From Sipunculus nudus (taxonomy: Eukaryota > Annelida > Sipuncula > Golfingiida > Sipunculidae), in contig CM049306.1 of assembly GCA_026874595.1 (NCBI GenBank), forward strand, positions 84,532,142-84,596,141: a stretch of 64,000 nucleotides of DNA, written 5' to 3'. Below, piece after piece: positions 447-56,206 of the stretch. The notes under the pieces are model-generated. The model was given only the letters and a program-made list of their open reading frames with translations. It was not told the origin of the DNA and searched no databases. Made by a program: the position numbers and the translations under genes. Every line of letters begins with the position of its first letter. The stretch's first letter is position 1.

Positions 447-3400
447 GTAAGTTGTTATATTGACTGTCTTTAAAAGTTTAAATTACAGCCTGCAGATAAA
501 TGTCATTTTAGAAATTGTCTTGACTTTATTAGGGATATCAAGGGCCCAGAAATATTAACATTTTGCATGGTGTATCATGAATATAAACATTTTGTTACAT
601 CATATATGTTAATAGTTTGGGACTTCGTATATCACATTTTTCAGACACTTGGAGCCCCTGAATATCAGTATTTCTTTACACTTTTCATTTCAGGGACAAG
701 ATCCTGTTTTACATGCAAACTAGCAGATAGTGTCATTGATTGATTAGCTAAATACATAAAAAGAATCCCAGGCAAATATATTAAGTTGTGCCTGGTCATT
801 TGATGAGAAGGATTACCTCAGGGCATCAATTTTTTTATGATAGCGCCAGTACTTATGCTCATAAATATATACAAAAAATGGTAATATGTGCAAAAATTAA
901 TATTCATGAACCTTTTATTTTTTAATTGAAATGTATGATATAAAAACAATTTAAAGAACAATATTCATGAGTCCTTACAAGTCTTCTGCACTGTGATAAC
1001 AGTTCATGATGGATTTCACATAAACACTTATAAATGAGGTTTCCCTTTAAATTGACATGCCATATATGTCAAAATAAAAAACTCCAGAATCAAAGCTATG
1101 GTAAGTGTCCTAAAAATTACAAAACCAGATACCAGATATATTCTTTAATGTAGTGTTTTCACCAACAGACATTAACTACTCATTTTAGGGAGTATAGGTA
1201 GAAACATCTTAATCACATAATATTGATACTGAGTATGATTTACTTAATGTGATTCCTATGCACAATATATGATTTTCCATGACTTAAGATATAGGTCTGT
1301 GTTATTAAAAGGGAAAGCCCTGGCAGCCAGTTACTTATTCTGAGTTATATACAAATAAAAGGTTTGTGAGGAATAGCTATTTTCCCACAGTGTAACTCTG
1401 TCATTTCAAACTGCAGTTCTGTTGCATATATGTAGTATTGTTCCCTTCAAACATAACTACTGAATCTGATTAACTGTTAATCAAAGTCTCGTTGTACACC
1501 AGTTCATAAACAAAACTATTTCGACATTTAATATATAAACATATTTTTGTATGAAATTGCAGTATTCATTTCATATCATTGTTTTATTATGAGCATAATC
1601 AGAAAAAAATGACATCATAAGTGCCCTTCTGAATTATAGTATTAAAATATAGAGACATTGTAATGATAGGTTAAATTGAGATGGGAAGACCAAAATTGCA
1701 GAGGTGAAATTTCAGAGTAATCTTGGTTTTAATTACTTTCAGACACCCTAAGTATGTATATCTATTTGTTTTTTAACATGTAACTTCAGATAGGGAAAAA
1801 TTAATTGATTGAAGTATGAAAGTTTTATGTTCACTTGTAAAAAGTCAACAAGTCATGTAAAAACAAAAAAAATGGTGTTTTTGACTTTCTTCCTTTCATG
1901 TAAGACAACCACGATTGAAACCCATGAAATATAGCCAGACAAGGTTGCAGTTATTGATTTTTGGTGCGGCTTTTGCTGCAAGAAATATTAGTTTGCTGTG
2001 AGTGTAGAGCTTTCGGTCTTTCTGCTTGTCTTATGAACACGGCAGATTGATTTTGGCCAGGAAAATATACACAGTGATTGATGTGGGTGAACAACTTAAC
2101 ATTAACATTGCCTGGTGTGTATACGAAGAAAACTGAAGCCTGGGTGGGTTAATCAATGGCTATGTTGGCTTTGCTTCCACACATTGACATAGGGTAGATT
2201 GGTCAATAGTGTAACCATAGTGATATGGTTGAGAAACAAAGCAAGCAGAGTTATTCAGAGCTGCTCTTATGGGATATTTGGTTCTTAAATATAACTTTAT
2301 ATTTTTTTATATAATATAATATTTTATCAACTAAGATTAAGTAAAAAAAAATACTTTTTTTTTAATTTACAAGATGACTCATCAGAACTTATTGTAATAT
2401 AGGCTTCCCATATCAGTATTAGATAAAACATTTATGAACATTTGCCTTTAAGTAATCATATTTTGGATATGTGACCAGTAAAGACATTATGGATATATAT
2501 TATTAACTGTCCTTGCCTGGCTGTAAAGACATTTAGAGTTAATTGATGAATTTGTCTCTTCATTTGTATGCTTAAAATTTAATTTGATTACATTCAGCCA
2601 AGCTCATTATTTGCAGTGGAATTGTACTTTCACTGTGTGCAAAACTGTGCTCAATTTTCTATTTGCAGCATGCAGACATGGGCACTTCCAACTTTAGTTT
2701 CACATTTAGAAATTTTTATCCATTTATTTAGTCTGCATAATTATTACTTGTATAAAAACCATCTAAATATGTATAAATGTTCTCTTCTGTGAACATTAGA
2801 AATATTTATATATTTATCTAAACTTTTTTCCATCATCCTTGTCCAACTGATTTTATGAGATACATCTTTCAAATGTATTTGTTAGCTACAAAGCTTCAAA
2901 TTTTATCACTCGAGTAAATATGGTGATCTATGACAATTTAAAGTGCCAAAAAAAATATGTTTACTTTGTTAAGTGGGGCAACGTTGAATAGTCTTAAAGG
3001 AGCTGCAAAAATGATGGTTTGATTAGAAGTGGCCATACCTGTTTCTCAATGGCATGTAATATGAGAGACGTATGTGTGACATCACAAGTGTTACATTACC
3101 CCTGAGAATCATAAATGTATAGGTTAAAATCTTCAGCTTATGCCATAAAATACATATGTCAAAATACTGTATATCTGTTTATGGTCACATTGCATATTGA
3201 AGTAATATCACATGGAATCCATACATGGGAGAGTATTATTTTGCTGTCAGATAATACTTTTTTTACATTTTTCTGACTTGCCTTTTAGGCAGATAAATGA
3301 AAACCTCGAGAACATTTAACAAAAAATATTGCTAAAAAGGGTGGATAGGTTAAATTGAATGGAGTATATAATTATATACCTACTTTCCTGTGATAACTTC

Positions 3401-4617
3401 ATCCAAGATTTGATGCCGCACTAAACAGTACATTCAGACATTGAAGGACAGCAAGTAAACTGTACTGTGATATAAAAAAGGTGTTGTGTGAAATCTCCCA
3501 GTAAATGCTCCTACATTTCTGTATGCTGTCAGTCAAATGCAGGTCATACAACAGATTGAACTGCTTCATGTAATAATGCTGAAAGATCATAGGTTCATTG
3601 TTTCTCATCTTGCAGTAGAATGAAACCCTCAAGGTTTCATAATGTGTATGAAGATAAGAATATATGACATCCCCCTCCCCCAAGGATGAAACATAATGCA
3701 GTGATTTGATAAGTCAGAAATATTAGGATTTACAGTGATACCTCATATTCTTATCAATGACATCTGGTGGTCATGCTTTGAATTTCTCTCTAGATCTATG
3801 CTATTCATCTGATCAAAATTGGTTCGATCATGACCTTATCTTCATTGCAAGATCAATGAATCATTAATAAATTGTCATGCAGTAAAATTAATTCAGTGTG
3901 TCCATTTTGCCGGAGTATCATTTGATGTGAAATTGATTTGAAGGACAATGCCCTACTTTTTTTTCTATTGTCTCTTAAAAGTTGATAAAAAATTTATACT
4001 GCATTATGCTTCATGTGTATGGAAATTTCAGGAAACAAAAATTAAACTTCAGCCATTACCAGCATTAGGGTTGTGCCATTATGGACACTGTATTTCTATA
4101 AGTGTTCTTTTATCACCTTTTTACACTTTTCTTACTGAGATAAATTGTACTTATTAGTGTACTTATGATGAATTAGATTCAATCATTTTGTAAATAATTA
4201 TAAAATAACTTAAAACAATTCAGGTAAGTTTCAATATGTATACTTTAGGACATTTAATAGGGGATCAGTGACAGCTGTATGAAGTGTAGCTTGTGCAGCC
4301 AGTTTTACCCCATTTAGCTACCCTGTAGAACTCACCCTACCCCATTGTTGCTTGCATGGAATCAACCAATCACTATATGGAACACCTGGTGTACACATTA
4401 TCTTTATATATTGATACCGATGTGTGTATAGTCCATTCCAACACTTGGCATCCACAGGCTTTCAGCAGAAATACAATATGCCTTGGGCAATCATGCAGGT
4501 TAGACTTATTTGTGATCTGTTTAGTCTTTAATATGAAATACAGTGACTATTTTAATATAAGTTTATGCAAGTCATGCCAGGAGTTTGAATGCCCTGAAAA
4601 GACAAATTGTGGAGAAA

Positions 4618-4681
<64 letters not shown>

Positions 4682-5992
4682 TCCATTATGATAACAAAGG
4701 TATCCCAAATCACACAATTATGAACACTTCTAGTTCACTTCAAAATTTTTGTAATAGATAAAGAATTGGAAAAAAATACTGAAATCTGTGGATTCCTGGT
4801 GATGGTTTGAACAAAAGACCACAATATACCTACCAGTATGATTTCATAATGACTAACATAATAACCCACATGTACTAATCAGCTCACTGTGGTTTGGTAT
4901 ATCATTTTAATTGTTCAGATGTCCAAAGGAGAGTTATCAGTTCAGGTGATTTGTACAACTGATTGAATCTTTATTCTTTATTCTTTTCTCAACTGTCCTG
5001 TGACATGATAAGCTTCAGTGGACAGAAAAACAACAATAGCAGTTTGTGTCTCTTTTTGTGACAGCGGTATTCCAGCATATTGGGCATACATCTTATTCTG
5101 GGTAATGTTGGAATAATTTCCTAAATAGTTTAATAAAGTTGAAAAACATAAATTTTGAATGAAAGTTGCACTGCTTTTTGTATTATTTGCCTCATCCCTT
5201 GTAGAATTTTATTTTGTATGAATACTTATGGTAGTAGTAGTCACATTGTAGATCTTTATGGTAGCAGAAGTCACATGACCCAAGTTGTCTCCAAGCAGTT
5301 TTCAAAAGCAGCCAGATTTGAACACCAATTGCATGGTCATATCCCTAGTTCTTGTGAATATGACTGAATTTATCTGTTGGTACTATGGAAAAAGTTTCAT
5401 TTCTGTGCATATTTTCAGATAAACTCTAATTGTAATTTGTCACTAATGTAGATGTGATTAGACTAGTTTTCCATAGAAATATGTTTGCATTACATAGATT
5501 GTTTTCTTCTTAACCTTTTTTTGTTATCCCCTCATTCTCTTTTTGTTAGATTCTGTTTGCTGTTAGTGTGAAATTAAAGTGTTCACTTTCATTTTAATGT
5601 ACAAATTACTTGAATCTGAATGGTAACCAGTGACTTATATTGTATGTAAACTGGCTGCACAAACTCTACATTAAATGTGCAATTTGTTTTGTGAAATAAG
5701 TAGCATGCATGATTCTCTCCACTCTTGCTAGAAATTTTGGGGATTCTAACATAGGCAAACCTTTGTTTTCAATTATATACTCAGGTGTACAAACTGAGAA
5801 ATACCTGGAATTTTCATCACAATCTGTATGTCCAGTATGCTGGAAATGTGCTCCTTATTGTGATATTTAATATATCAACTACTCACATTTTGTTCTAATT
5901 GAGCTATATGTGTGAATGAGTGTGTACTTTTGAAATCTTTTAATTCCTTTTCATAACAATGGGTATCATTTAATATTCTATAATCAGTACAA

Positions 5993-6048
<56 letters not shown>

Positions 6049-9000
6049 TTAACACAGTGTTTAACTCTCTGTACTGTTAAAATTTAACTTCTAAAATTCT
6101 TCAAAAAGAAGCTTTTTTAGGTTTATATTTTATTTGTGAATTTTAACTGGTCTTTTTAGCAGACCTGTGAGCATATGCGATAGTGTGCCATTCACCGTCC
6201 TTACATTAACCCATATTATCTCAAAAACAGCAAGAGCTATAGCATCACCAAATTTTATGAAAAAAAATCAGTCATCTAAAAAACTCTCAGATTTTGCTTA
6301 TTTTTCGTTATCTGCATTAACTTGGTAGATTTTAAAGACAAAAAGCTAAAAAAAACTTTTAAAATCTTCTAATTAAAAAAATGTCCAGACAAATCGTTAA
6401 ATATTTCACAGAAATAAATTCTGAAAAAATCTCTCTTAAGTTTGTTCAAATGGTTCCAGTTCGTTGAATTTAGGGTGAGTTTTGGGAAGCTGAACTGAGT
6501 CATTTGGCCAAAAAAGGATATTAAAATTACAATATCAGAAACAGTTAGAGCATCACAAAATTTTTGGCAGATTTTGTCACATGACTCATATTTGAAATTG
6601 AGGTATTGGTGGCACCATTTGCATCAACCTTTTTTGAATGAGGGATCATCAGTCGTCAGTACATTAACCCATAATTTCTCAAGAATAGCGTAAGCTAGCA
6701 TCCCCAAATTTCATGCAAAAACCTGTCACATATCAAATGTTGTGGTATTGAGCTTTTTGTGGTGCCAACTGCTTTAACTTGCATTTATGGGAAAAAGCTA
6801 AAAATCTTTTAAAAATCTTCTTCTCTGAAATCATTCAGTGTTCAATATTTCACTGAAATGATCCCAATTAAAGACCAGCTCTCTCAAGTTTGTTCAAATA
6901 TTTTGGGTTTGATTAATTTTGGCCAAGTTACAGGAATTTGAACGGAGTCATATGGGCAAGTGAGCATACTAACAAAACAATATAGGAAACTACACAAACT
7001 ACAAACAAAGTTTTGTGCAGATGTTAGTCACATAATGATTCATATTTGAAATTGCAGTTTTTGTGGTGCAACCTACATTGACCTTTGTTTTATGGGCAAA
7101 AACCTCATAATTTTAGTCTCTTTCAGCTTAAAAATGACTATGATGAAATTGTCAAGCTGAATCATTTAATTTTTCACAAGAATACTGTGGTTGGCTTTAT
7201 ATTCGCGAGGCTGAAATTTCGCGATTTCTTCATTTTGAGCGTTTCGCGAGGGTTTCATTTTCGCGATTGTAGCAGAACATATACCATCTAAGCACAGCAG
7301 TATACATATACATTGAATTTGTATTTATTTTAGTTTAGAACAAATCCTACAATAGCTCACTAATTTCAGGTTCTGTCATTCACTTATGACTTGTGTAACA
7401 GTTTATATATTTCATGTGATTACCGCGTGTTTCAGTACTGATTTGTTTTCTGATTATATTGTTTCTGTATGTGGGATAACTCTTCCCTTCCCCTCTTGTT
7501 CATCTTGGTTGATCAGGCTTTTTATTCCCGAGGGTTTAATATTCGCGATTATTTAATATTCGCGAATATCGTGAAAATAAAACCCTCGCGATTAAAAAGG
7601 CAACCACAGTAATCCTAGGGTAAGGTAGAAGTGTATATCCCTGCTTATGTTTTATGAGATTTTTGACATATCAGCTAGAAATTGGGCATATTTATACATC
7701 TCAGATAGCTTTGTCATATAGAAGACTTGTGGCACCACCTACAGTTGTTTTTGGTTTCATACATCTGTGCCTATGGTTCAAGAGTGTTTTGAAGTATCTT
7801 CCTGGAATTTTACATGTTCATACATCTTCGATGACTTTCTCATACACAAGACATATAGTGACACCTATTATCATTTTTCTGTTGTTCAGGTTTGCATTAA
7901 GCCTGTAAGCCTTGGTTTTAATATCAGGGTTTTCTGACTTATCTACTGTGGTTATCACATTCAGATATTTCCTACACCTCTCCCTAAAAGTGAAGGGTAA
8001 TGATAAAATTAACAACAGATATGAAATTATTCAAAGTCAAACTCATTCCAACAAATATGTAACAATTAATTATTAATATCAGTATTATATTAAACTTGTG
8101 ATTAATTTTTTTCTTCATTTGTCATAATCTGATTGATAGTTAAGATTTTATTTTCAAGAAAGCAGGTATTTAATATTGTATCAATAAAATGTATCTATTA
8201 AGGGGCATTGCATTCTGCTGTCTTGCAAATGTAACAAGAATCTGTATCTGGTACTAATAATAATTAACTGCATCATGAAACCATAAGCACCAAAGAGATA
8301 CTTAATACTTAAGCATTGGGATACAGGTTAGTTCTAAATTAGTAATGTGGAATTTCTGTTCAGTTTTACTAAGCCTAAGTCAGTAAACTTGATCATGAAC
8401 TGGAGTATTAGTAAATTTAGTTGTTTGGCATTAGCATATTTGAGACTGGTCTTATTTTACACTGGATGAATGATTTTTTTTACTTAGATTCTGTGAAACT
8501 TTTCCATGTATTGTGGTTAACATGTATATTTTGTTTTTATAAATGTTCCCTTCAGTTGGTAAGTAGGTGATTTGAAATAAGCTAAAATTGACCCAGATTC
8601 CTACATGCTTACCTGCCAAACATCATGTGATCATTTGTTGTTGATCTGATTGGTCATATCTACATTTCTGAAATAAAGATGCCTGTTAAAACAATAATTA
8701 AATTGTAGCACCATTAACATATCCGCCTTTTGATAGAGATTCTGATTTGATATGTCAAGAGATTGAAATGATTTTAGTTTTTAGCGAACCTGTGAGCTTA
8801 TGCGATGGTGCGTCGTCGTGCTTCGTGTGTCGTCTGTCGTGCGTGGTGCATTGTCCGTACGTTAACCATAGCTATCTCAAAATTGGCAGAAGCTAGCATC
8901 ACCAAATTTTTTGCAAATATTCATTCATCTGAAAAACTCTATTGGATTTTGTTTTTCTAACTGCATTTTCTTAGATTTTATAGGGAAAAAGCTAAAAAAG

Positions 9001-12000
9001 CTTTAAAAATCTTCTTCTCCAAAACTGTCCAGCCAAATTGTCCAATATTTCACAGAAATGATCCCTGGAACAATCTTTCTCAAGTTTGTTCAAATGGTTC
9101 CAGTTCGTAGATTTTTGGTCGAGTTACAGGAGGTTGAACTTAGTCATCTGTCCAAAAAAGCACACTAAAATTAAAATCTCAGAAACGGCTAGAGCTATAT
9201 TGACCCAATTTTATACCAATGTTTGTCACATATGTCATATCTGAAATTGAGGTATTGATGGCGCCACCTACATTGATGTGTTTTTTACAAGCGAAAATGT
9301 AATTTTAAACTCTTCTAGCTAATACACTGATTTATGATGAAACTGTTAAGCTGATTGGTTTAAACTTTACAAGAATTATTCTATGGTAGGGTTCTGCCGG
9401 TTTTATAAGAATAGATTGGGTAAATACAGCTTTAAAATAAAGCATTGTAGTCAATTAAAAAAGGCTTTTTGTGTTTGAAAACAGATTTGACAACATGCTG
9501 ATTTTCAGCAGCCAAGTCAAGAGGTCACTCAGTACAAACAGGTGGGGTCCAGACCTCACCATGGCAACTGACCTGGCTCTGGCGGGTGTCTAGACAATGT
9601 GTCTAGAAGTCTAGACACAGCTTCTAGGTGTCTAGACACGATGTCTAGATGCTGAATTCCTAGATTATTGGAACTATATCTTTCAACTGTTTGAAAAAAC
9701 TTGGTTTGCATTTTAAGCGAATCAGGTTTATTATTAGGTCACACGTGAACTGCTGCGCCCTCATTTTTGGTTGACCTCTGACCTTTCATTGCTGCCCAGT
9801 GTCCATTTGTACGTCTGTTTCCACACATAAACCCACATATCTCAGGAACCGTTTGACCAATCAGGCTAACAATTTTGCACAAATGTAGCCCTTTGATAGC
9901 TTTATAACATACATTAAAAATGACCTGCAACCATTTTTGCACAGCATCCATCTGTTCATCTGCCTTGGGATAAAATCACTCATATCTCAGCAGTGGTTTG
10001 ACTTTTCCACCTGAAGTTTTGCAGGTTTATACATCCTGGACAGCTTTCTCGATTTCATGACAGGTGGCGCCACCTACATTCAGGTTTACTCTGCAGACAT
10101 CCAAGCTCATATCTCAGGAACCGTTTGACCGTTTGGGCCAGAATTTTGCATGTGTATGGATCTCACATAGCTCTTCATCATAGGCAAAACTGGTGGCGCC
10201 ACCTGCAACCATTTATGCACAGCGTCCATATGATCATCTGCCTTGGGATAAAATCACTCATATCTCAGCAGTGGTTTGACTTATCCACCAGAAAATTTGC
10301 AGGTTTATACATCCTTGACAGCTCTCTCGATTTTATGACAGGTGGCATCACCTACATTCAGGTTTACTCTGCAGACATCCAAGCCCATATCTCGGGAACA
10401 GTTTTTAGCTCAGCTGACTATAAGTCATCTGAGCTATAGTCGTGGTCCATTGTCCGTCGTCCGTCCGTCTGTCCGTCCGTCTGTCCGTCCGTCCGTCCGT
10501 CCGTCCGTCCGTAGATGTGGCACGTTTTGAAACCATAAGACCTAGGAATCCAAAATTCAGCATAATGTTAGATGTCCCCAAGATCTCCTACCAAGCCGAA
10601 AAATGGGTCTTTGCGACTTCGTTCCTTTGAGAAATTAAGGAAAAACCTCAATTTTTTATTAAAATCCTATTTTCACACTTCAGGACTGCCTAATATAAAA
10701 ACCACTCATCTGTTTTTCCTCATATTTACCATAAATATTCCTCTATATACTTCCTATGAACATGCCAGAAATTAAGTCTGTAATGTATAAATTCTTTAAG
10801 TTATGGGCCCAAACAAAATGGACTTTGTAAAAAATCAGGAAAAATAATAACTCACTTAACATGAAAAATTTTGAAACTAGAGTCTATTTTCTCAAGTATA
10901 TAACTATGTTTAATTAAGATTCAATTGTTAACCCAAAATTAGATCTGAATTTTGTAAATTTTTTAAGTTATTAGCATAAAAAATAAATCAGTACCTTAAA
11001 TTTTGCCCATCTTTGACCATGGCACGTTTTTTACCTGTAAGCACCATTGATTTAATTTTCACAGCATATTAACATAAATATTTAGTGTGTCTAAATCTGA
11101 AATTTGAAAATAAAAGCTTAAAAAATTAAGTTAGTTATTGATTTTTTTTCTGTAGTCACTTGCTTTGATTACAGATGCAGGGTCCCACTCCAGGTCACTG
11201 GAAGTCAGCTATGCCAGGGTTTCTGATTTGTTACAGTCACTGGGGGAGATCCCCTGCTGTGACAGGTGTACAGTTATTCTCATATCACCACCCCAATCAC
11301 ACCCCCACCCCCCACCCCCCACGCAAACCCAACCCACCAAGTGTTATGCGGTAATTGTTATTGTTTTCACTGTATCTCCTTAATTGTAATGCTGTTTCCA
11401 CTCCGATATGCAAAAACTTTCCTTGAAAAAATAATGCAAGGTGTAATCCAGAAGATGCAATGTTGTGTAATGTAGCATTTTTAAAGAAATCAATGATTTT
11501 AACAAATATAATTGAACCCATCAGTATGCTTAAATTATTATAAAATATGAAGCACATTATGGATAAATAAAGACACAATTAAAAATTGTGAAATCTAAAT
11601 CAAGTATTATTTTTAGATATTTATTGTTTTGCAGATTTAAAAGATATATTTTTGTGGTAAAAAATAAATGAACATTTGTATGCATGATGTGGTGTTATCT
11701 GACAAGATTGAGATTTATGATGATGCAATTGAGAATTATGAATCAACTTTTATATTCAGATATATATGTTAAATTTGAAATGTATAGAAATTTAAACTTA
11801 AATTAGAAAATAATTGATGTGATAAAAAAATCAGGATTTAATACAAACATTTGTTCATTATTTTCCTGCCTCAGCAGAATTTGAGATCAGGCTTTGTTTG
11901 CCCTGTTTTATGTTGTTAATTAGCTATATTTCAACTGTATACATTTCATAAAAAAATACATATATATTTAATAATATATATTATACAAAAAAATAGATTC

Positions 12001-14720
12001 AATTGAACAAATGTGTAAACTACTGAAATGTCAACAGGTAATCGAAAAACCAACTAATGATCATGTTAATAGTACAGATCATTTGTTCACAAACTGCTCA
12101 CATGCTTTAGTTTCAACAGTAGAAAACACATGGTCAGGTCACAAAATATTTTTTGCAACAATTTCTTGCTCATCAATACAAACCAATCATATAAACCAAC
12201 CATGGCCTTTATTACTCTTCCTCTTACACTTTGTCTCCATTTGATATTATTTTAGATTTTTACCTTCAAGGTTAACGTCAGCTGAGCACAGTGACCCATA
12301 GGTCCCTTGTTTACGATTGGGCGAAATTTTTGCATGTGTATAGATCTCACATAGCTCTTCATCTTTGGCAAAACTGGTGGTGCCACCTGCAACCATGTAT
12401 GCACAGCGTCCATCAGTTCATCTGCCTTGGGATAAAATCACTCATATCTCAGCAATGGTTTGACTTATCCACCTGAAATTTTGCAGGTTTATACATCCTG
12501 GACAATTTTCTCGATTTTATGACAGGTGGCACCACCTACATTCAGGTTTACTCTGCAGACATCCAAGCTCATATCTCGGGAACTGTTTGACCAATTGGGC
12601 CAAAATTTTGCATGTGTATAGATCTCACATAGCTTTTCATCATAAGCAAAACTGGTGGCGCCACCTGTTAACCACTTATGCACAGTGTCAACCTGTTCAT
12701 CTGCCTTGGTATAAAATCACTCATATCTCAGCAGTGGTTTGACTTATCCACCTAAAATTTTGCAGGTTTATACATCCTGGACAGCTTTCTCGATTTTATG
12801 AAGGTGGTGCCACCTACATTCAGGTTTACTCTGCTGACATCCAAGCTCATATCTCAAGAACCAGTTGACTGATTTGGCCAAAATTTTGCTTGTGTATAGA
12901 TCTCACATAGCTCTTCATCATAGGCAAAACTGGTGGCACCACCTGCAACCACTTATGCACAGAGTCCATCTGTTCATCTGCCTTGGGATAAAATCACTCA
13001 TATCTCAGCAGTGGTTTGACTTATCCACCTGAAATTTTGCAAGTTTATACATCCTGAACAATTTTCTTGATTTTATGACAGGTGGCACCACCTACATTCA
13101 GGTTTACTCTGCAGACATCCAAGCTCATATCTTGGGAACTGTTTGACCAATTGGGCCAAAATTTTGCATGTGTATAGATCTCACATAGCTCTTCATCATA
13201 AGCAAAACTGGTGGCGCCACCTGTTAACCACTTATGCACAGTGTCAACCTGTTCATCTGCCTTGGTATAAAATCACTCATATCTCAGCAGTGGTTTGACA
13301 TATCCACCTAAAATTTTGCAGGTTTATACATCCTGGACAGCTTTCTCGATTTTATGAAGGTGGTGCCACCTACATTCAGGTTTACTCTGCTGACATCCAA
13401 GCTCATATCTCAAGAACCAGTTGACTGATTTGGCCAAAATTTTGCTTGTGTATAGATCTCACATAGCTCTTCATCATAGGCAAAACTGGTGGCACCACCT
13501 GCAACCACTTATGCACAGAGTCCATCTGTTCATCTGCCTTGGGATAAAATCACTCATATCTCAGCAGTGGTTTGACTTATCCACCTGAAATTTTGCAAGT
13601 TTATACATCCTGGACAATTTTCTTGATTTTATGACAGGTGGCACCACCTACATTCACGTTTACGCTGCAGACATCCATGCTGATATGCAACACACCTCAC
13701 TCTATTCCCCTTGGCACTTAATCCATGCCTCACTTCACCCATCCCACTCTGATTTCTGCGGATACACATAGTCGCTTGTTGACTACCCATATTCTAGTTT
13801 TAAAATGTCCTAGACTGAAACTTTCAGGTCCGAAACATCCATTTTGCTGAAATCATAATGACTAAGGTAGATATGCAAGACTTAAGAGGATCAATATTAA
13901 ATTTAAAAAATAAACCTCCATTCATACTCCCAAACTTTGCACAGGTTTGCATTAGGCCTGTAGGCCTTGTTTGGAATTTACATAAAAAAATCACCACCAG
14001 TTGTCTCCAGTGCAGTCTTATTTCTAATTTTTTTTTTTGCTCCTTAATCATAAGAAAAAGTTTTAGGTATAAAGTAGTATATATTTACCCATTATACATC
14101 CTAGAAGAGCAGTGTATTAATGACCTAAATGCAAGACTAAACTTGCAAACTGGTCTGTATAATATATCTTAATAGGATGACCTCTGGTGGTGATCACATG
14201 AACTTGAAAATGAAGAATGTAGTGTTGTGGAAGCTGAACCTGATTAGTGGAAATATTTTTTAACCATAAAAAAAAAATAAGTTGAAAAATAGTTTAATTG
14301 TATCCAATCGATATTAACAGAAATATCTAATTTTTCCATTTTGTCAGGGAATAGACATTTTAATGAATACTTAACATTTTTACACTTATATATTATCATT
14401 AACTTAATGACATCGCACTCTTAAAAATTACTTTTTTACTAAACATTCAGAGAAAATGTGTATGTATGTGACTGGTATTCAGTATTTATTTGCAAGGGTT
14501 TGAATGAATCAGTGAGAATACAGTTTGTGTGATCAACAGTTAACCAACAGTTTTTTGTATACTCTTCATAAGAATATATTGAATTACGCTTTTATGTTCT
14601 CTCTCTGTATTATACTATGTTATAGCCTGTGTTATTTCCATGATATAATCGCTTACTCTTCCCCTCTGATTCTGTTCTTCAGTGCTTGTACTGTCCTCAG
14701 TTTCCACTCCTCTGTGCTTT

Positions 14721-14756
<36 letters not shown>

Positions 14757-15452
14757 ATTATTGTTGTGTTTTTGGTATTTTACTTGTTGTAGTATGTTGC
14801 AATAAGAAATTAAGCATTAATGAAAAACATTGCAGTATCTACATTACAGTGGACTTTACCTGGTTCCAGTGATTTTAGTGGTGACTTGATCAGCTCTGAG
14901 CTACTTGATTTTGCTGTTTTTACAGTCAAATACTAATTTTATGTTTGTTCAATCTGTACAGTGGTACCATTAAACATTGTAAGATGATGCTTAATTGGTT
15001 GGCAGATCTTGTGATGGTAGTTACTCCCTCCCCTCTCTCTTCCCCTTTTCCCATTTTATAGGGGCTTGGGGGGTGCAAGTGTGTGCCTTTTGTGGGGGGG
15101 GGGGCTTTTAAGACTTTAATTTAGTCTGGTATCAGGTCTTGATTACTTCAACTGGTAATGTAATTTGGTTAACAAGTCATTAAAACAATAAACAAATGCA
15201 GTCTGATTACAAAATGTTCAGAAATTTCAGGGCTCATGCAGTTATTTATGTAACAACAGTTGGTGTCACTACTTCTTTGATAGTGTTTTCAAGTTGCATT
15301 ATTAACCTATGGCCAGAGGCCAACATCTTTACACAGGTAATATTAATATTTTGGAGTGCTTTAAAGTAAGCAAATGTTCAGTTTCTTTTAATAGAATAGA
15401 AATGATGGCTTCCCTTTGCATGTATATTTTAATACAAATGAAGATTATGTAC

Positions 15453-15530
<78 letters not shown>

Positions 15531-18500
15531 TATTGGTGTGTACCTTAGGACATATTTTGATACTTGTGTTCAAGTCAGGTAGCACTTAAAAAGTACTCAA
15601 GCCCTAAATTTACTACCCATTTAGCCATGCAAAGTAACATTGATTCCACATGCTTGGTTCACGTGGACTTTTTATTTACCCAACAGTGTCAGCTACCATA
15701 AAAAATCATTGTTATATCGACCATGCCTGGGGGTGTCTCATGTTAACATCCTTTAACAGCTTCAATGTGAAGGGGTGTCTGTTTTTTGTAACAAACTCAC
15801 ACATCCAGCACCACCCTGTTTGCTATTATGGGTGTAAAAAAAATACAGTTCTGGCACTAAACTCCATTTGATAGCCCTACTCTATATGTACAGGAGTTAT
15901 AACAAAACGAAAATCATTACACATAAAGTGATACCCATTTTTGCATTCAGAACATCAGGCATAGCCGTTTGGTGATCAGTGACGGACTTTAGTAGGTAAA
16001 ACACAGGGTACATTCATTTGCTGGAAAGTACTTATACTGTGTTTACTCAAAACAAAAAGTGGTTCTTAGTTTTGAGTGGTGCTACATGTACACTTTTTCT
16101 GGCTAAACTATCGGTTACAGAGGCATTGTCAGACAAAAGGAATAGTAAGAGTGCCCAGTTATTGTTGTGTCATTGATTGGCACTCATGAATGGCCAACTC
16201 TGTTTGGTAGCAGAATGGTGGGCATGGAAGCCTGAACCACAATAGTCCTAGAGCCCTTGTACCTACAGTCACCCTCAATGCATGGTTGCTATGGAATATT
16301 TATCCTTTCTTAAGATCTCTTACAGTGATTGACACACTCCATACGTCATTGGTTTGTTTAATTCTTTACCTTGACATCAGCATAAGAAATTTTAATGTGA
16401 TTCCTGCAGAGTCAATAACAGGATAAATATTTACTGTTGATTTTCAAAAAAGAGACATATATATACTTATGATTATAATCAGACAAAGCAGATTCTTAAA
16501 TTAACTTCACTTAAACCCAAAGTATCTCACCTGTAAAAGTATGAGATCTATAATAATAGGTAACCCACAGCATACACTTTTAAATGAAAAGAAAACTGTA
16601 GAAAACAATAAAATATTGCCTATCCAATCCTTACTTTATGTATCAGATATCCAGAAATACTAGTAAACATTATTGTACTTCATTTAAGGGTTTCTAATTA
16701 TGCTTTGTTATTGTTTTCTTACAGTATGATGATTTTAACTACACGAGACACCCTGTGTTGACAAAAGCTGTGTTTGCTGTGTTTGCAATACTTGTGCCCA
16801 TTCTGCTGTTGAACATGCTGATTGCTATGATGGGAAACACATATCAACAGATCATATCCAGATCAGCCAAAGAGTGGAGGAGACAGGTAGGTTGAAGGCT
16901 ATGATGATACATAGCACATATCAACAAACTGTATTCAGACCAGCTAAAGAGTGGAGAAGACAGGTAGGTTGAAGGCTATGATGATAAATAGCACATATCA
17001 ACAAACTGTATTCAGACCAGCTAAAGAGTGGAGAAGACAGGTAGGTTGAAGGCTATGATGATACATAGCACATATCAACAAACTGTATTCAGACCAGCTA
17101 AAGAGTGGAGAAGACAGGTAGGTTGAAGGCTATGATGATACATAGCACATATCAACAAACTGTATTCAGACCAGCTAAAGAGTGGAGGAGACAGGTAGGT
17201 TGAAGGCTATGATGATACATAGCACATATCAACAAACTGTATTCAGACCAGCTAAAGAGTGGAGGAGACAGGTAGGTTGAAGGCTAAGATGATACATAGC
17301 ACATATCAACAAACTGTATTCAGACCAGCTAAAGAGTGGAGGAGACAGGTAGGTTGAAGGCTATGATGATACATAGCACATATCAACAAACTGTATTCAG
17401 ACCAGCTAAAGAGTGGAGGAGACAGGTAGGTTGAAGGCTATGATGATACATAGCACATATCAACAAACTGTATTCAGACCAGCTAAAGAGTGGAGGAGAC
17501 AGGTAGGCTGATGGCTATGATGATACATAGCACATATCAACAAACTGTATTCAGACCAGCTAAAGAGTGGAGATTCGAAGACAGATAGGTTGATGGCTGT
17601 GATGGGTAACGCATATCAACAAATCATATCCAGATCAACTGAAACTTGTTTTATTTACACCTTGTGTGTTTTAAGAAGCAAGATTACTGTGCTTGCCGTG
17701 TTATTTTAATATTAGGCAAACTTAAAATCAACAATGAACTTAATTATTGAAATTTATATCATCCACATTAGTTATAGAGGTCACATTAAATATTAATTCA
17801 GTAATATCAAGATCAGAATTCATATTTATTCAGCGTATTTTCTTTATGCACTGTGTTTTGATTTATGAACATACCAGGTTATATTAATCAGTCATTTCAA
17901 AATATGTATTTTTTAATCATAGCATTGTCTAAAATGAAACAATAATGTGTCTGATTAATCTCATGAGAGATATTGTGTGTAAATTATTTTTCCAGTGGGC
18001 AAAAATTGTGATAGTTCTGGAGAGGACATTTTCTAGACAGCAGCTACTTAAGTACCAGGAAGAATACTCGGTTAAGCTCCTTGGGCGGGAAAATGACAGA
18101 GGTCTTATGGTGATCAAAACATCTGCAAAGACCAAAGCACGGCAACGTAAAGGGGCAATCTCTAACTGGAAGGTAAGTCACCAAGTTATCTTCACACTTG
18201 TAAGTGGATTTGTATATTTCTATTTAGAATGTTCATTACATGAGCTTGATATTTGGTATATTAGGAAAATAATCAACTTGGCTATATGTTCCTGTTTAAA
18301 TGCATGATACCATGACATGTTGTAAGAACAGTGAAACAAAAGAGCCTCTAGTGCCTTATCAAGAGAAAGAAAATTGCACCAGTCAAAAACTTCTTGTAAA
18401 GCAACCATGTAGGTTTGTGTAATTTAAATTTATTCTGGGTTTTGTTTCAGAAATTGGTTAAAGAGATAAAGGATCTGATCAAAGACCAGAAGAAGAAAGG

Positions 18501-19212
18501 TCGTGCAGGTCCTATAGATCTGACATCACAGGAGGTGGCTCTACACCAGCAGCGCAAACGTCAGTCCAAGATGGACCGCCAGTTGCTGGGGGCAGGGAGT
18601 GATGACTTATCAGCTTCAGCGGACGGGCTTTTATCGGCGATGACCCAGCTGGCATGGGAGAAAGACATCGATTTGATGAAAGCACCAAAGAAGGAAATTC
18701 CAGAGGAAGAGATAGCTGAATTAGAACAATCAATTCTAAAAGAGGATACAAGGACTGAATCTGTAAAATGTTTACCTAGCCCTCCGTCATCTAAGCTGGG
18801 CAAAGCTAGTTTGTCACAGGATAGTTCTCCTCTTAAGTCAGACAATACAAAACATGAGCAGGTCGGGATGAAGGAACTCCGAGGAGGTCATAGGTCAAAT
18901 AAAGTTGCACCGCAAGAGAAAGTGTCCTCAAAGAGTCCTACATCAGCTGATTCAGCATCACCAGTACCAGGTGATAATCCGCCACAAAAACACAATGCTT
19001 CCAATGTGATTGTCCCCAAGAAAAAGAAACCTCTTTTGCCGAAGAGTGCCAAACAAAGAAGTGGTTCAGGAGAATCCAAAGACTCTGCATTTTCAGAAGG
19101 AAAGCCAAAACCTTTGAAAGCTATGGATTCTAGAACAAGTTCTAATTCAGCATCTTCTCTGACTTCTTTGTTAAATGCGTGGGATGATAAACCACAAAAC
19201 AGCGATGTATGA
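340..19212 (+). CDS. TRPV-family cation channel (Nanchung/Inactive-like), C-terminal part, 4 exons
   Basis: Exons 340-446, 16725-16886, 17996-18172 and 18451-19212 join in phase into about 401 residues. In order these give the end of S5, a pore loop ([13 protein letters not shown]), S6 ([20 protein letters not shown]), the MGNTYQQII segment, the post-S6 helix ([16 protein letters not shown]), the block [20 protein letters not shown], and a long Lys/Ser-rich cytosolic tail. TRPV channels are tetrameric plasma-membrane cation channels; the invertebrate Nanchung/Inactive and OSM-9/OCR members act in mechano- and chemosensation. The S6 and post-S6 blocks are diagnostic of TRPV. Choosing between the Inactive/OSM-9 and Nanchung/OCR branches needs a tree; I lean to Inactive/OSM-9. 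The ankyrin repeats and S1-S4 must lie upstream of position 1. Vertebrate TRPV5/6-like is the likely automated label. Confidence 0.93.
4622..4676. repeat. (TA)n microsatellite
   Basis: About 27 uninterrupted TA units inside the long TRPV intron. Confidence 0.97.
5995..6044. repeat. (TA)n microsatellite
   Basis: About 25 TA units roughly 110 bp before the start of an R1 element. Confidence 0.97.
6153..7920 (+). mobile_element. R1 element, near full-length copy a
   Basis: Starts TTTTTAGCAGACCTGTGAGC and ends at a near-palindrome, AAGCCTGTAAGCCTT, followed by T-rich sequence; those ends recur in the copies at 25522-30260 and 36201-38688. The interior repeats monomers with the phrases ATTTCACAGAAATGATCC, CAAGTTTGTTCAAATGG and GTGGCGCCACCT or variants. 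It has no coding capacity, so it is a non-autonomous element. A 425 bp MITE sits inside it at 7185-7609. The family name is mine. Confidence 0.75.
7185..7609. mobile_element. TA-flanked MITE (Tc1/mariner-like ends) inside R1 copy a
   Basis: Terminal inverted repeats of about 27 bp begin CTGTGGTTG at the left and end CAACCACAG at the right, with TA on both outer sides (7183-7184 and 7610-7611). The interior repeats TTCGCGA-type motifs. The other R1 copies read straight through this point (around 27700 and, in reverse, 37790), so they supply the empty site. TA duplication and short inverted repeats with no ORF fit a non-autonomous Tc1/mariner-type MITE. Confidence 0.85.
7921..8777. other. TRPV intron spacer between R1 copies
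   Basis: AT-rich intron sequence; no exon or recognisable element seen. Confidence 0.6.
8778..9405 (+). mobile_element. R1 element copy b, 3'-truncated
   Basis: Begins TTTAGCGAACCTGTGAGC and follows R1 through its GTCGTC-rich stretch and the first monomers, then loses similarity near 9400 without the AAGGCCT hairpin end. Confidence 0.7.
9587..9649. repeat. Cluster of five TCTAGA palindromes
   Basis: TCTAGA occurs at 9589, 9602, 9610, 9631 and 9644. Two copies sit inside the perfect 10-bp palindrome TGTCTAGACA (9587-9596 and 9629-9638). The surrounding 250 bp matches none of the repeat families here. Confidence 0.9.
10405..12310 (+). mobile_element. R3 element copy a, nested in R2 copy a
   Basis: Starts TTAGCTCAGCTGACTATAAG, which folds with the following CTGAGCT into a terminal hairpin, then a GTCC tract (10451-10513), then long AT-rich unique sequence, and ends GTCAGCTGAGC ... 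GGTCCCTTGTTT. GCTCAGCTGAC at the start and GTCAGCTGAGC near the end are inverted. R2 sequence (GGGAACAGTTT | ACGATTGGGC) resumes across the junction, so the insertion fell in a T-tract. There is no coding capacity. Confidence 0.78.
10451..10513 (+). repeat. (GTCC)n tetranucleotide tract
   Basis: About 15 GTCC units with a few GTCT variants, directly after the terminal hairpin of R3 copy a. The repeat gives Ser/Val/Arg/Pro peptides in all frames; these are not genes. Confidence 0.93.
12418..13531. repeat. Tandem 556 bp duplication of R2 dimers
   Basis: The segments 12418-12974 and 12975-13531 are nearly identical over 556 bp, which is two R2 dimer units of about 278 bp. Few differences between them imply a recent unequal exchange. 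Confidence 0.82.
14722..14753 (+). repeat. (CT)n microsatellite
   Basis: About 16 CT units; they account for the Ser-Leu run in the 115-codon frame across this point. Confidence 0.95.
15456..15532. repeat. (TA)n microsatellite
   Basis: About 38 TA units with one CA interruption near the 3' end. Confidence 0.97.
16725..16886 (+). CDS. TRPV exon: S6 and start of the C-terminus
   Basis: Acceptor TTTTCTTACAG at 16724, donor CAG|GTAGGT at 16887. The 162 nt are phase 0 at both ends and encode 54 residues from [10 protein letters not shown] through the hydrophobic S6 to RSAKEWRRQ. The last 63 bases of this exon are the source of the downstream 77 bp tandem repeat, so the authentic donor is the first of nine near-identical donors. 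Confidence 0.93.
16824..17640 (+). repeat. 77 bp minisatellite derived from the exon 3' end plus donor site
   Basis: Starting with the exon end itself, GTAGGT donor copies recur exactly every 77 bp at 16887, 16964, 17041, 17118, 17195, 17272, 17349, 17426 and 17503, then a degenerate ATAGGT near 17583. Each unit is 66 bp resembling the exon 3' end (still readable as [20 protein letters not shown]) followed by 11 intron bases. Repeat units share differences from the exon, including a 3-nt insertion. The outermost partial copy (about 17590-17640) lacks that insertion and is closer to the exon, which suggests an early duplication followed by homogenised amplification. Confidence 0.95.
17996..18172 (+). 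CDS. TRPV exon: post-S6 cytosolic region
   Basis: Acceptor TTTTTCCAG at 17995, donor AAG|GTAAGT at 18173. It has 177 nt in phase 0: 59 residues starting [18 protein letters not shown] and ending [11 protein letters not shown]. The [10 protein letters not shown] and MVIK...KARQRKGA blocks are hallmark invertebrate TRPV C-terminal sequence. Confidence 0.92.
18451..19212 (+). CDS. TRPV terminal exon: charged cytosolic tail and stop
   Basis: Acceptor TTTGTTTCAG at 18450; 253 codons and a TGA at 19210-19212. It starts [20 protein letters not shown], a basic amphipathic stretch, then an acidic helix ([13 protein letters not shown]), then a Ser/Pro/Lys-rich low-complexity tail ending [13 protein letters not shown]. 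The frame continues open upstream to 18415, but the phase and acceptor set the exon start at 18451. Tail sequence of this kind is poorly conserved, so the assignment rests on phase and on the exon before it. Confidence 0.88.
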   Translation, partial: KLVKEIKDLIKDQKKKGRAGPIDLTSQEVALHQQRKRQSKMDRQLLGAGSDDLSASADGLLSAMTQLAWEKDIDLMKAPKKEIPEEEIAELEQSILKEDTRTESVKCLPSPPSSKLGKASLSQDSSPLKSDNTKHEQVGMKELRGGHRSNKVAPQEKVSSKSPTSADSASPVPGDNPPQKHNASNVIVPKKKKPLLPKSAKQRSGSGESKDSAFSEGKPKPLKAMDSRTSSNSASSLTSLLNAWDDKPQNSDV

Positions 19213-25521: not shown

Positions 25522-28500
25522 TTTTTTAGCGAACCTGTGAGCTTATGCGACGGTGTGGCGTCGGCCGTCGTCTGTCGTCTGTACGTTTACCCATACTATC
25601 TTGAAAACGGCAAGAGTTAGCATCAAGAAATTTTCTGCAAAAAATTAGTCATCTAAAAAACTCTCTATCGGATTTTGCTTATTTTTTGGCTAACTGCATT
25701 TTCTTAGATTTTATAGAGAAAAAGCTATAAAAACTTTTAAAATCTTCTTCTCCGAAAGTGTACACCTGAATTGTCCAATATTTCACAGAAATGATCCCTG
25801 GAACAATCTCTCTCAAGTTTGTTCGAATGGTTTAAGTTTGGTGATTTTTGGCCGAGTTACAGCTAGTTGAACTTAGTCATCTGTCCAAAAAAGCATACTA
25901 AAATTACAATCTTAGAAACGGTTGGAGCTGTCATCACCAAATTTTATGCCAATGTTGGTCACATGAGTCATATCTGAAATTCAGGTATTGGTGGCGCCAC
26001 CTGCATCGGCCTTTTTCTGAACGGATCATCAGTGCCAGTATCGTACTGACAGCTACAAAAAACTTCTTCTCTGAAACCATTTGGCCATAATATCGCACAG
26101 AAATGATCCTAGGGTAGTGCGTTCTGAAGTTTGTTCAAATGTTCTCAGTTCAGTGACTTTGGGCTGAGTTATGAGAAGCTGAATTTAGTCAAATGCTATA
26201 ACAGCCCATTTTAGCTCAGTTGCTACAAAGATCTTCTTCTCAAAAACCACTGGGCCAAATTCTTAAATCTCACACATTAATTATCCTTAGATGTTGATAT
26301 TTCAAGTTTGTTCAAATGGTTTTGGTTCAGTGATTTTTGGCTGAGTTATTGGAAGCTTAACTTAGCCATTTTGCTTTATTTTCTCCTATGAATTATAAAC
26401 CTGCAAAACGTTTTTTAACTGACGCCACTGAGGCAAATTTGTTTAAAATTTTACAAGAATAATCCCCTGAATAATTCTGATAATAATTGTGTTTTATGGT
26501 TCCAAAGAATGAATTTTGGCTGAATAATAAAGATTGAATTGAGTCATTTTACCATATATGTTAGCTGTGTGAAAAAGATACATCTAGCCTGGAACCAGTT
26601 TATCAGCATCCTTTACATCATGCCTCGATCCAGACATTTAGATTTCAGGTTATCTTTGGTTAATATTGATAAGAATGTTTTTTAAAAAACTTTTTTAAAA
26701 ATGTAGATTTATGATTTTAGATATTCCTAATGCCAGGCAATGTTTACAATCACAGGTATACGTTAACCTATACTATTTCGAAAAGGACTTGAGCTAGCAT
26801 CATGAAATTTAATGCAAAGAATTAGCCATCTGAAAAAAATCTGCATTTTCTTAGATTTATAGAGAAAAAGCTAAAAACCTTTAAAATCTTCTCCTCTGAA
26901 ACGGTCAAGCCAGTTTGTTCAATATTTCACAGAAATAATCTTTTATACTATCTCTCTCAAGTTTGTTCAAATGGTTCAAGTTCTGTGAATTTTGGCCGAA
27001 TTACAGGAAGTTGAACCTAGTCATCAGTCCAAAAAATCATACTAAAATGACAATCTCAGAAACGGCTAGAGTTATCGACAACAAATTTTATGCCAGTGTT
27101 GGTCACATGAGTCATATATGAAATTCAGGTATTGGTGGTGCCACCTGCATTGACCTTTTTTTGTACAGGGGTCATTGGTCATCTGTATATCAACCATAAT
27201 TTCTCAGGAATTGCAGGAGCTACCATACCCAGATTTTATTCAATTATCTGTCACATATCAAATGTTATGGGATTCAGCTTATGTTTTTTGCTATCTGCAT
27301 TTACTTAGATTTTATAGGGGAAAAGCTGAAAAACCTTTAAAAGTCTTCTTGTAAACGGTCCAGCCAAATTGTTCAATATTTTACAGAAATGATTCGAGAG
27401 GCAAGCACTCTCAAGTTTGTTCAAATGGTTTGCATTTGATGAATTTTAGTGGAGTTAAATGAATTTGAACGGTCATTTGGCCAAGTAAGCATACTGACAT
27501 AGTTATCTCAGAAATGACAGAAGCTATCATTACCAAGTATTGTGCAATTGTTGGTCACAGGACTCGTATTTGAAGTTGCAGATTTTGATGTGCCACCTAC
27601 ATTGACTTGTTTTTATGGGCTGAAACCTCATAATTTTAGCCTCTTTCAGCTTAATATTTTTATGATGAAACTGTCAAGTTGAATTGTTCAATTTTTCAAA
27701 AGAATTATCGTAGGACATGGTTCTTTCAATAATATCAGAAAAACTTAAGTTGGTCTTATGGCCATTATTATGTCTAACTCAAACTGAGGACTGCAAAACT
27801 GTTCTACAAAATTATTGTTTCAATTATAACTTTTGTTACATGGCACAAAAATTATTCTTAGGTGGCCTTTGTTCAAGTTTACTTGAATGATTTTTGGCAG
27901 AATTATTGGACCTTTAACAATGAAAGAACTGAATCTTTTATTTTTCTAGATATTTTGATAAAAAGTTTATGAATATTTCAGCTTGAAAAAAAAGCATTTT
28001 AGCCAAAGTCTTTCAGTATGTGTAAACAGATTTGCCAACAGGCCAGATTGTGTCTGTATATTTACATAAGTTAAGAAACTGCCAACTGTTTCAGATTTGG
28101 CAAGAGATCAAGAGTTCATTCCGTGCAGCCAGATATAGGTCAAGAGTTCAGTCAGTGCAGCCAAGCACAAGGCATGTGATCCCCTCATGGGTGGCATGTG
28201 AACACCTCATGGGCACCATGTGATCACCTCATGGGTGTCATGCCCCTCAGGGCTGCATGTGGAGCCAATCTCTTTATAGCTTTGGCAGACTGCCAACTGT
28301 ATCAGATTAGGCAACAGGTCAAGAGTTCACTCAGTGCAGCCAGGTACAGGTCAAAAGTTCACCCAGTCTAGCCAGGTGCAGGTCATGAGTTCAATCAGTG
28401 CAGTAGCCTGAGCTAGCATATGTGTCACAGTTCACTCGGGGCAACTGCCTTTCTCACCTGAGCGTGGTCAGCCACATGCATCAGACGTGAGGTATGTTTG

Positions 28501-30260
28501 ATGTATTGGCCTAATATTTTGACCTGTCTATGTGTCTTTGATGTGTTTCTCGTTCACAAGACAGGTGTCACCACCTACAATGACATTTGCACAATGTGTG
28601 ACTTTTGTGCCTGCTTATTTCTATAAAGGAATTTGATATATCATCCTGAAATTGGGCATATTTATACCTATCGTATTTTAATTATTGTATACTTGTCGTA
28701 TGCAAGACTGCTGGTGCCACCTACAACATTTTTTGCACAGTATGTGTCCCTGCTTATTTCTCAGGAGGGGTTTGATATATCGGTCTGAACTTGGGCATAT
28801 GTATATATCTCTGAAACCTTTTTGTATACAAGACTGGTGGTGCCAGCTACAATCATTTTTAGCTCAGCTGACTGTAAGTCAACTGAGGTATAGGAATGGT
28901 GCTTTGTCCGTCGTCCGTCTGGACGTCCGGCCGTCCGTTAGCAGGGCACAAATCAACATCCAGGGAGGTCAATTAAAAATTTCCTTGGAAACCTGAAATT
29001 AGTTATGGGGCTTGAAAGTACCCCCCAGAATAGTAAAAAAATTTTAATGCAGAACCTCCAATATCTTGATAATTAATGCATGGTTTGTCATGAATCTTGC
29101 CTTGAATATAGACCATGACTAGTTTTGTCAGTTCCTGAAACGTGGTGATTTTCTTATTTTAACAAATATTTTTCTATTTATTTACTATAAAATGACAACA
29201 ATCATGTCAGTTTCTCAGCTGTCATTACATCTGGTGTCCCAAAACCTGGTGTGTTTATTGATCACAAGTGGATGTCCTATACTAATCACCCTGTCTGTCA
29301 GTCTGTCTGTTTGTATGTCTGTCTGTCTGTCAATCCGTCCATCCACACTAATTAGTTTCCAGATGATAACTCCAGTTAAGTTTGATATATTAGTTTCAAA
29401 CTTAACTTATAAATGGCCCACCACTAAAGTAAGAACCATGTTGATTTTGCGGTCCAACGGTCAAAGGTCAAGGCCACAGGACCCAAAACTTAAAAAGGAA
29501 TGTGTATGCATTTGAAGCCTAACTTTTCATCGCAAACCTTCCATCTTCAAGGTATTGCTAACCTGCCACTAGGGGAAGATTGTTTGATTTTTGGGTCATA
29601 GGTCAAAGGTCAAGGTCACAGGGCCCATCCATTCACAAATAAGTTTATGGATGATAATTCTGCTTTGGATAAACAGACTGGCTTCAAACTTGATTTAATA
29701 ATGACCAACCACATATGTAAATTCATTTTGATTTTCAGGGTCCAGTAATCTAAGTTGAAGGTCACAGAAGCCACATCTTTAAAAAGATTGTGGATGCACT
29801 GTAGATCAAACTTTTCATCCTGAACTTTCCAACGTTCACACATGGCTTACTTGCCCAAAGTGAGAAAACCTGTAGAGGTTATCTGGTCAGAGGTCAAGGT
29901 CACTTTTTAAAAGATTGTTACAATAATCCTAATGCTGCAAGTTCAAGGATATTAAGTTCTATGATTTTATGGTTACAAGGTCATTGGTTAAGGTCACAGG
30001 ACTGTCATTCTGAAAAATTTCTTCCAAAATATCCTTATAGACAAATTCAACTGAGCGTTGAGACCCATGGGTCCCTAGTTGTGTTGTGTGCACCCATGGC
30101 AGAATTTCAGCAGTGATGTTTGTGTAATTGTTTCTTATTCAAAATGTTAAGTACTTGCATTGTTCATATACATGAGAAGTCATGGTCCAGCATTAGAGCA
30201 TTATACCTGGTGTATTTTACAATGAACAGGTTTGCATAAGGCCTGTAGGCCTTGTTTTAA
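25522..30260 (+). mobile_element. R1 element copy c, longest, with nested R3
   Basis: Starts TTTTTTAGCGAACCTGTGAG and ends GCATAAGGCCTGTAGGCCTT followed by GTTTTA. It contains several long monomers (CAAGTTTGTTCAAATGG at 25817, 26945 and 27413), a 28100-28400 block repeating TCAAGAGTTCA and CACCTCATGGG, and a 3' block with GTGGTGCCACCTACAA. R3 copy e (28856-30082) interrupts it. The minus copy at 36201-38688 mirrors it without that insertion. Confidence 0.77.
28856..30082 (+). mobile_element. R3-type element copy e nested in R1 copy c
   Basis: Starts AGCTCAGCTGACTGTAAGTC after TTTTT, with GTCC/GTCT tracts near 28905 and 29290-29340, and AGGTCAAAGGTCAAGG-type motifs (29460, 29590, 29885). It ends near GAGACCCATGGGTCCCTAG. 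R1 copy d reads GCTACAATGTTGTGTGCACC across the equivalent point, so it is the empty site. Two repeat types (R3 ends, DR1-rich middle) seem to be combined here. Confidence 0.65.

Positions 30261-42034: not shown

Positions 42035-56206
<14,172 letters not shown>

Follow-up and report, generated by a model that had tools for sequence, protein, structure and literature searches.

The TRPV channel gene

The 64-kb window (the whole stretch of DNA that was analysed) contains the last exons of a TRPV channel gene of the Inactive/OSM-9 type, and a 77-bp tandem array at 16818-17640 starts inside its S6 exon. The exons and introns concerned are as follows.

340-446, + strand: pore exon of the TRPV gene, ending TLGEFK, phase 0 (paralogue profile with i-E 2.4, weak alone, with splice sites, phase and an open joined frame)
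447-16724, + strand: predicted 16,278-nt intron upstream of the S6 exon
16725-16886, + strand: S6 exon, 162 nt, phase 0 at both ends, YDDFNYTRH...SAKEWRRQ, ending AGACAG
16887-17995, + strand: predicted 1,109-nt intron holding the array
17996-18172, + strand: next exon, ...ISNWK, remainder of the TRP helix and proximal tail (PDB match, frame)
18451-19212, + strand: last coding exon, with the stop codon (open reading frame, frame)

When the S6 exon joined to 17996-18172 is compared with the PDB, Inactive (9nvn_B) matches at E 1e-37 without a gap across the junction, confirming the TRPV identity that the earlier note had given this gene. Among the best 60 of 116 matches the same query finds solved structures of Nanchung at 1.4e-15 and TRPV4 at 3e-09. 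As judged from Inactive being the best match among solved structures over S6, TRP helix and tail, the gene belongs to the Inactive/OSM-9 group of TRPV channels. In the genome (1.43 Gb, 153 contigs), a search with 187 aa encoded by the last three exons matches 14 places; three are strong, one per exon and all at this locus. Of the other 11, four are TRPV-like below E 0.01 (33-46% identical), six are weaker (28-47%), and one is the array itself, matched at 57% over 23 residues with E 6.4.

A single gene appears to carry ankyrin repeats, transmembrane helices and pore, with S1, S4, S5, pore and S6 exons in order: the ankyrin exons lie 23.6-26.8 kb upstream of the window and are followed by S1, S4, two S5 exons and the pore exon. 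The profile used to find exons was made from six TRPV paralogue fragments of the same genome, taken from nine paralogue loci fetched, and its scores are weak alone (i-E 0.074 for S1, 1.9 for S4 and 2.4 for the pore exon). The S4, S5 and pore exons were accepted on consistent splice sites and phases and on a frame that stays open when they are joined; order and the look of the splice sites suggest the S1 assignment, weakly. A PDB search of 1721-16722 in the three + strand frames gave no match at E 1, a control indicating power for a strongly conserved exon only, and no upstream exon was recognised from the open reading frame list, the end motif or hydropathy, although the pore exon stood in that list. 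We rejected a partial gene copy or pseudogene, as the upstream loci and the paralogue profile show the gene continuing.

Within the same gene there are tandem 110-nt exons for the S4-S5 linker and S5 (L017:4227-4336 and L017:6437-6546), with the same phases, at 5.8-5.7 and 3.6-3.5 kb before the first base of the window. Either one gives an open joined protein and both together give a frameshift and a stop, such that mutually exclusive use in an Inactive-type TRPV is probable. We make no claim of novelty for this pair, as the phrase mutually exclusive exons occurs with TRPV in two titles of the literature.

The 77-bp array and its donors

The array and its parts are arranged as follows.

16818-16886, + strand: exonic copy 0 of the repeat unit, 69 bp (alignment of copies)
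16884-16892, + strand: donor 1, CAG/GTAGGT, the only donor that keeps the frame
16887-17502, + strand: eight inner 77-bp copies, each ending ACAG before a new GTAGG (TRF, alignment)
16893-16895, + strand: in-frame TGA, reached via any of donors 2-9 or by intron retention
17503-17584, + strand: ninth intronic copy, 82 bp with a 5-nt insertion, donor 9 (GTAGGC) at its start and a GACAG end before the dead AT at 17585
17585-17640, + strand: distal truncated copy without the 3-nt insertion, nearer to the exon than the inner consensus is

TRF reports 16838-17572 with a period of 77, 9.5 copies, 97% matches and a score of 1372, and this together with the alignment of the copies to the exon bears out the earlier proposal of a minisatellite made from an exon end. 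That proposal divided the unit into 66 exon bases and 11 intron bases; the alignment gives instead 69 exon bases (16818-16886), the five intron bases GTAGG and a 3-nt insertion, the duplicated piece being 74 bp (69 exon bases plus GTAGG) and the three extra bases being present in all nine full intronic copies. The unit starts in the exon alignment with CTGATTGC at 16818, copy 9 retains the leading C and reads CTGATGGC, and the distal copy reads TTGATGGC; the 5′ starts are CTGATGG in copy 9 and TTGATGG in the distal copy, compared with CTGATTG in the exon. Both the exon and the distal copy lack the 3-nt insertion, and the order of events can be read from the copies much as the earlier note had suggested. 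The end of the distal copy, the presumed site of the original donor, is gone. The array from 16892 to 17640 takes up 68% of the 1,109-nt intron.

The copies are not all alike, as u2 and u6 differ, there is a G/A difference in u1-u3 and u9 has the 5-nt insertion; there is no difference among u4, u5, u7 and u8, nor between u1 and u3. Between 0 and 3 of the 77 columns differ among the eight inner copies, and 3-5 differ between these and u9, in addition to the insertion. Over 54 columns the distal copy has 9 differences from the exon, the inner consensus (u4) has 15 from the exon, and the distal copy and the inner consensus differ at 14; for the whole unit, 15 of 74 columns differ between the exon and the inner consensus. 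This divergence between distal copy, exon and inner consensus, set against the near-identity of the inner copies, suggests an old first duplication followed by recent amplification of one inner unit. Of the nine differences between the distal copy (17585-17640) and the exon, five are at first codon positions, none at second and four at third, a slight hint from avoidance of the second position that this copy may once have been coding, in counts too few to use.

There are nine CAG/GTAGG donors, at 16887, 16964, 17041, 17118, 17195, 17272, 17349, 17426 and 17503, so that the 5′ splice site is multiplied ninefold as had been claimed. The further claim that each unit recreates CAG/GTAGGT is correct for eight of the nine; the ninth reads GTAGGC, and loss of the GT has left a tenth copy, ATAGGT at 17585, dead. 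In the 64-kb window CAGGTAGG is found nine times on the + strand, always within the array, and not on the - strand. Donors were scored by base-pairing to a presumed U1 5′ end sequence in place of the species' own; eight of them reach -11.4 kcal/mol, and donor 9 has -10.7. Among 3,469 GT sites scanned on the + strand, 11 reach -11.4 and 13 reach -10.7, and since all nine array donors are among these best 13, strength does not single out donor 1. Within the TRPV gene, donor 1 scores best of the ten inferred donors (-11.4, the others -5.2 to -11.0). Concealment of the internal donors by RNA structure was rejected because local folding does not separate donor 1: the chance of a fully open 9-mer is low for all nine donors (0.003-0.015), donor 1 having narrowly the highest (0.0151, compared with 0.0146 at 17272) and the lowest mean single-base openness.

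The last 23 unit columns on the donor side, donor included, are identical between the exon and the inner consensus (P 0.0017 for that end and 0.027 for a run that long anywhere, noticed after the fact), with changes inside this stretch consisting of one in u1-u3 and an insertion in u9. This identity could be a sign that the donors are under selection and not neutral; gene conversion by the end of the exon, or unequal exchange with it, would produce it equally, and the decay of the outer donors (C at +6 of 17503, GT to AT at 17585) counts against selection.

The array sequence is confined to this locus in its own genome (1.43-Gb assembly), and a 33-base array probe had no exact match in collections of prokaryote and viral sequences, an outcome expected of animal DNA. 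Genome-wide, three strong donor motifs in a row at the array spacing are matched 1,060 + 876 times, compared with 267 + 124 for the reversed pattern. The matches listed, all within the first 62 Mb of contig C1, lie in five places, and all but 11 of the listed rows belong to one satellite block at 61.73-61.75 Mb; the one locus inspected in each of the five places is an array of another period, from 17 to 371 bp (motifs counted on one strand). Units of the satellite block (G000:C1:61733683-61749781) repeat CAGGTAGGTC, a strong donor motif, many times.

The window itself has seven tandem arrays with a period over 60 bp, the TRPV array included. Two satellite-like arrays of 278-280 bp (12314-13686 and 49109-50508) are mutually inverted with 82% identity, both of their consensus units contain GGTGGCGCCACC, and further pieces of this satellite lie near 7.5, 10, 28.5, 34, 36.5 and 40.5 kb. 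Inverted composite elements at 28027-28853 and 36389-37158 are 78% identical, have matching 22-bp and 32-bp tandem arrays inside or beside them, and look like a mobile element family. On the - strand, 44650-54225 has open frames resembling, by their motifs, exons of a putative MCM replicative helicase.

Predicted outcome of splicing at each donor

With donor 1 joined to 17996 the tail stays open for 366 codons and its protein is collinear with Inactive through the junction, whereas each of donors 2-9 leads, directly after RRQ-VG, to a stop at codon 57 as counted from the start of the exon. The frame logic of the earlier note thus stands, donor 1 alone being open. Its inference that the array could set a ratio of full to truncated channel is unsupported in that form. 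A stop more than 50-55 nt upstream of a junction usually triggers NMD, and for donors 2-9 the stop lies 68, 145, 222, 299, 376, 453, 530 and 607 nt before the next junction, such that NMD, and hence less mRNA, is likelier than a truncated channel; by the usual rule all products of donors 2-9 would be NMD targets. The cut, between RRQ and WAKIV, presumably lies inside the TRP helix, and a protein ending at this stop would lose part of that helix together with the tail and probably would not work.

Recursive or mini-intron splicing of single 77-nt units is unlikely, as the pyrimidine tract is lacking: 4 of the 20 bases preceding the CAG of the unit are pyrimidines, compared with 13-15 of 20 at three inferred acceptors. 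We also rejected a short coding unit, since 77 is not a multiple of three and three joined units have six stops per frame.

Donor choice, precedents and alternatives

The published rules for choosing between donors point in different directions depending on gene architecture. By an older one, the intron-proximal of two comparable donors is said to be favoured (PMC6002489), a rule that would predict use of donor 9 and damage to the gene. In exon-defined minigenes with two identical CAG/guaagu donors, in contrast, the upstream donor was used exclusively in all tested; for natural exons flanked on either side by introns above 250 nt the upstream preference is a bias and not absolute, and exons preceded by a long intron and followed by a short one prefer the downstream donor (all PMC9225289). 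At this locus neither flanking intron is as short as 250 nt with any of the donors, the downstream intron ranging from 493 to 1,109 nt, and donor choice would be set by this architecture, not by strength or local structure.

We consider it likely that the array is an old duplication across the exon end, recently amplified, and now a functionally silent minisatellite tolerated because it is masked by cross-exon proximity. A tandem duplication of ~74 bp across the exon-intron boundary would have placed a second exon end and donor inside the intron; the outer copy would then have decayed, and one inner copy with the 3-nt insertion would recently have been amplified to about nine. Situated between introns of 16.3 kb and 1.1 kb, the S6 exon would be recognised across the exon, with donor 1, the nearest to the upstream acceptor, paired and used in vivo, and any other U1-bound sites removed with the intron. 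Tolerance through first-donor preference had been the second option in the earlier note, and it is better supported than the ratio reading because the exon sits between predicted introns of 16,278 and 1,109 nt. A genome rich in tandem arrays, with donor-motif runs common elsewhere, was also counted in favour of a silent array.

This kind of array is already known, the donor-carrying minisatellite of human IFI6/G1P3 being the precedent. Turri et al. (1995) reportedly described in human IFI6 (G1P3, 6-16) a minisatellite with multiple splice donor sites; the IFI6 repeat units are short, at 12 nt. Two downstream minisatellite units of IFI6 serve as donors and yield isoforms (PMC4526556). As in the TRPV gene, the units carry 5′ splice sites, and the TRPV array has the form that marks this type, starting at an exon end and repeating a good 5′ splice site; in IFI6, however, some downstream donors are used, whereas here the 77-bp unit also copies 69 bp of exon and the internal donors lead to a stop. 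A second likeness, to accounts of intron gain through tandem AGGT duplication (the Rogers model, ATP2A1, potato RdRp and the 24-bp repeats of fission yeast, where one intron spans several repeat copies; PMC4974935), lies in the tandem copying of a segment containing AG/GT. Here it would be an existing donor that was multiplied and an existing intron that was lengthened, with no likely new acceptor: judged by sequence, the 4 of 20 pyrimidines give no usable 3′ splice site for a new intron between copies. The minigenes of PMC9225289 likewise have a single acceptor followed by a tandem of strong donors of the same sequence, and flanking introns longer than 250 nt, but those were engineered with two donors and transfected into cells of another host, whereas the TRPV array is natural and has nine, whose copied upstream context is similar (15 of 74 columns differ from the exon). 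No report of the TRPV array was found among the top-ranked titles in the open-licence literature searched.

The main alternative to a tolerated minisatellite is a splicing rheostat, in which internal donors would be used some of the time, each use sending the transcript through a premature stop to NMD, and the amount of channel mRNA that survives would depend on copy number or on the levels of splicing factors. The eight equally strong donors and one slightly weaker, all within the best 13 of 3,469 GT sites, the identical stop given by every internal donor 68-607 nt before the junction, the 23 unchanged donor-side columns and the use of downstream units as donors in IFI6 (PMC4526556) are all consistent with it, but cross-exon proximity predicts donor 1 (PMC9225289) and the outermost donors are decaying. 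We regard this as unlikely. Its length-variable form, with copy number setting the fraction of Inactive-type transcripts that leak to internal donors and are destroyed, seems decidedly unlikely. The extra donors might instead be U1 landing pads that aid exon recognition or shield the transcript from early polyadenylation while remaining unspliced. Nine strong U1 sites spaced 77 nt apart, wider than the 35-nt U1 footprint obtained by summing figures in PMC6002489, would suit such a role, as would the increased U2AF and U2 recruitment seen with an appended 5′ splice site (PMC8724738). However, the intron offers a single AATAAA/ATTAAA hexamer (17785) to shield, donor 1 is already strong and nothing links the array to expression, and this proposal is very improbable. 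That the array is an assembly artefact, or is much longer or shorter in the animal, is the least credible. The identity of u4, u5, u7 and u8 and of u1 and u3 points that way and makes the exact copy number dependent on the assembly, but the copies carry private variants, their differences argue against a plain assembly duplication, the copies at its edges have diverged in the way expected of a genuine array, and the assembly is long, with 153 contigs and a contig here of 110.9 Mb.

The choice among equal 5′ splice sites is an old question, for which the test in PMC9225289 used two sites in minigenes. Nine near-equal donors in one gene with an all-or-none read-out, the full channel or an immediate stop, make a good natural test. 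Strict use of the first donor would be evidence for cross-exon proximity in a natural nine-site gene, and any leak would give copy-number-dependent control of a sensory channel. If the length-variable rheostat were true, minisatellite length by itself would create heritable differences between individuals in a sensory channel.
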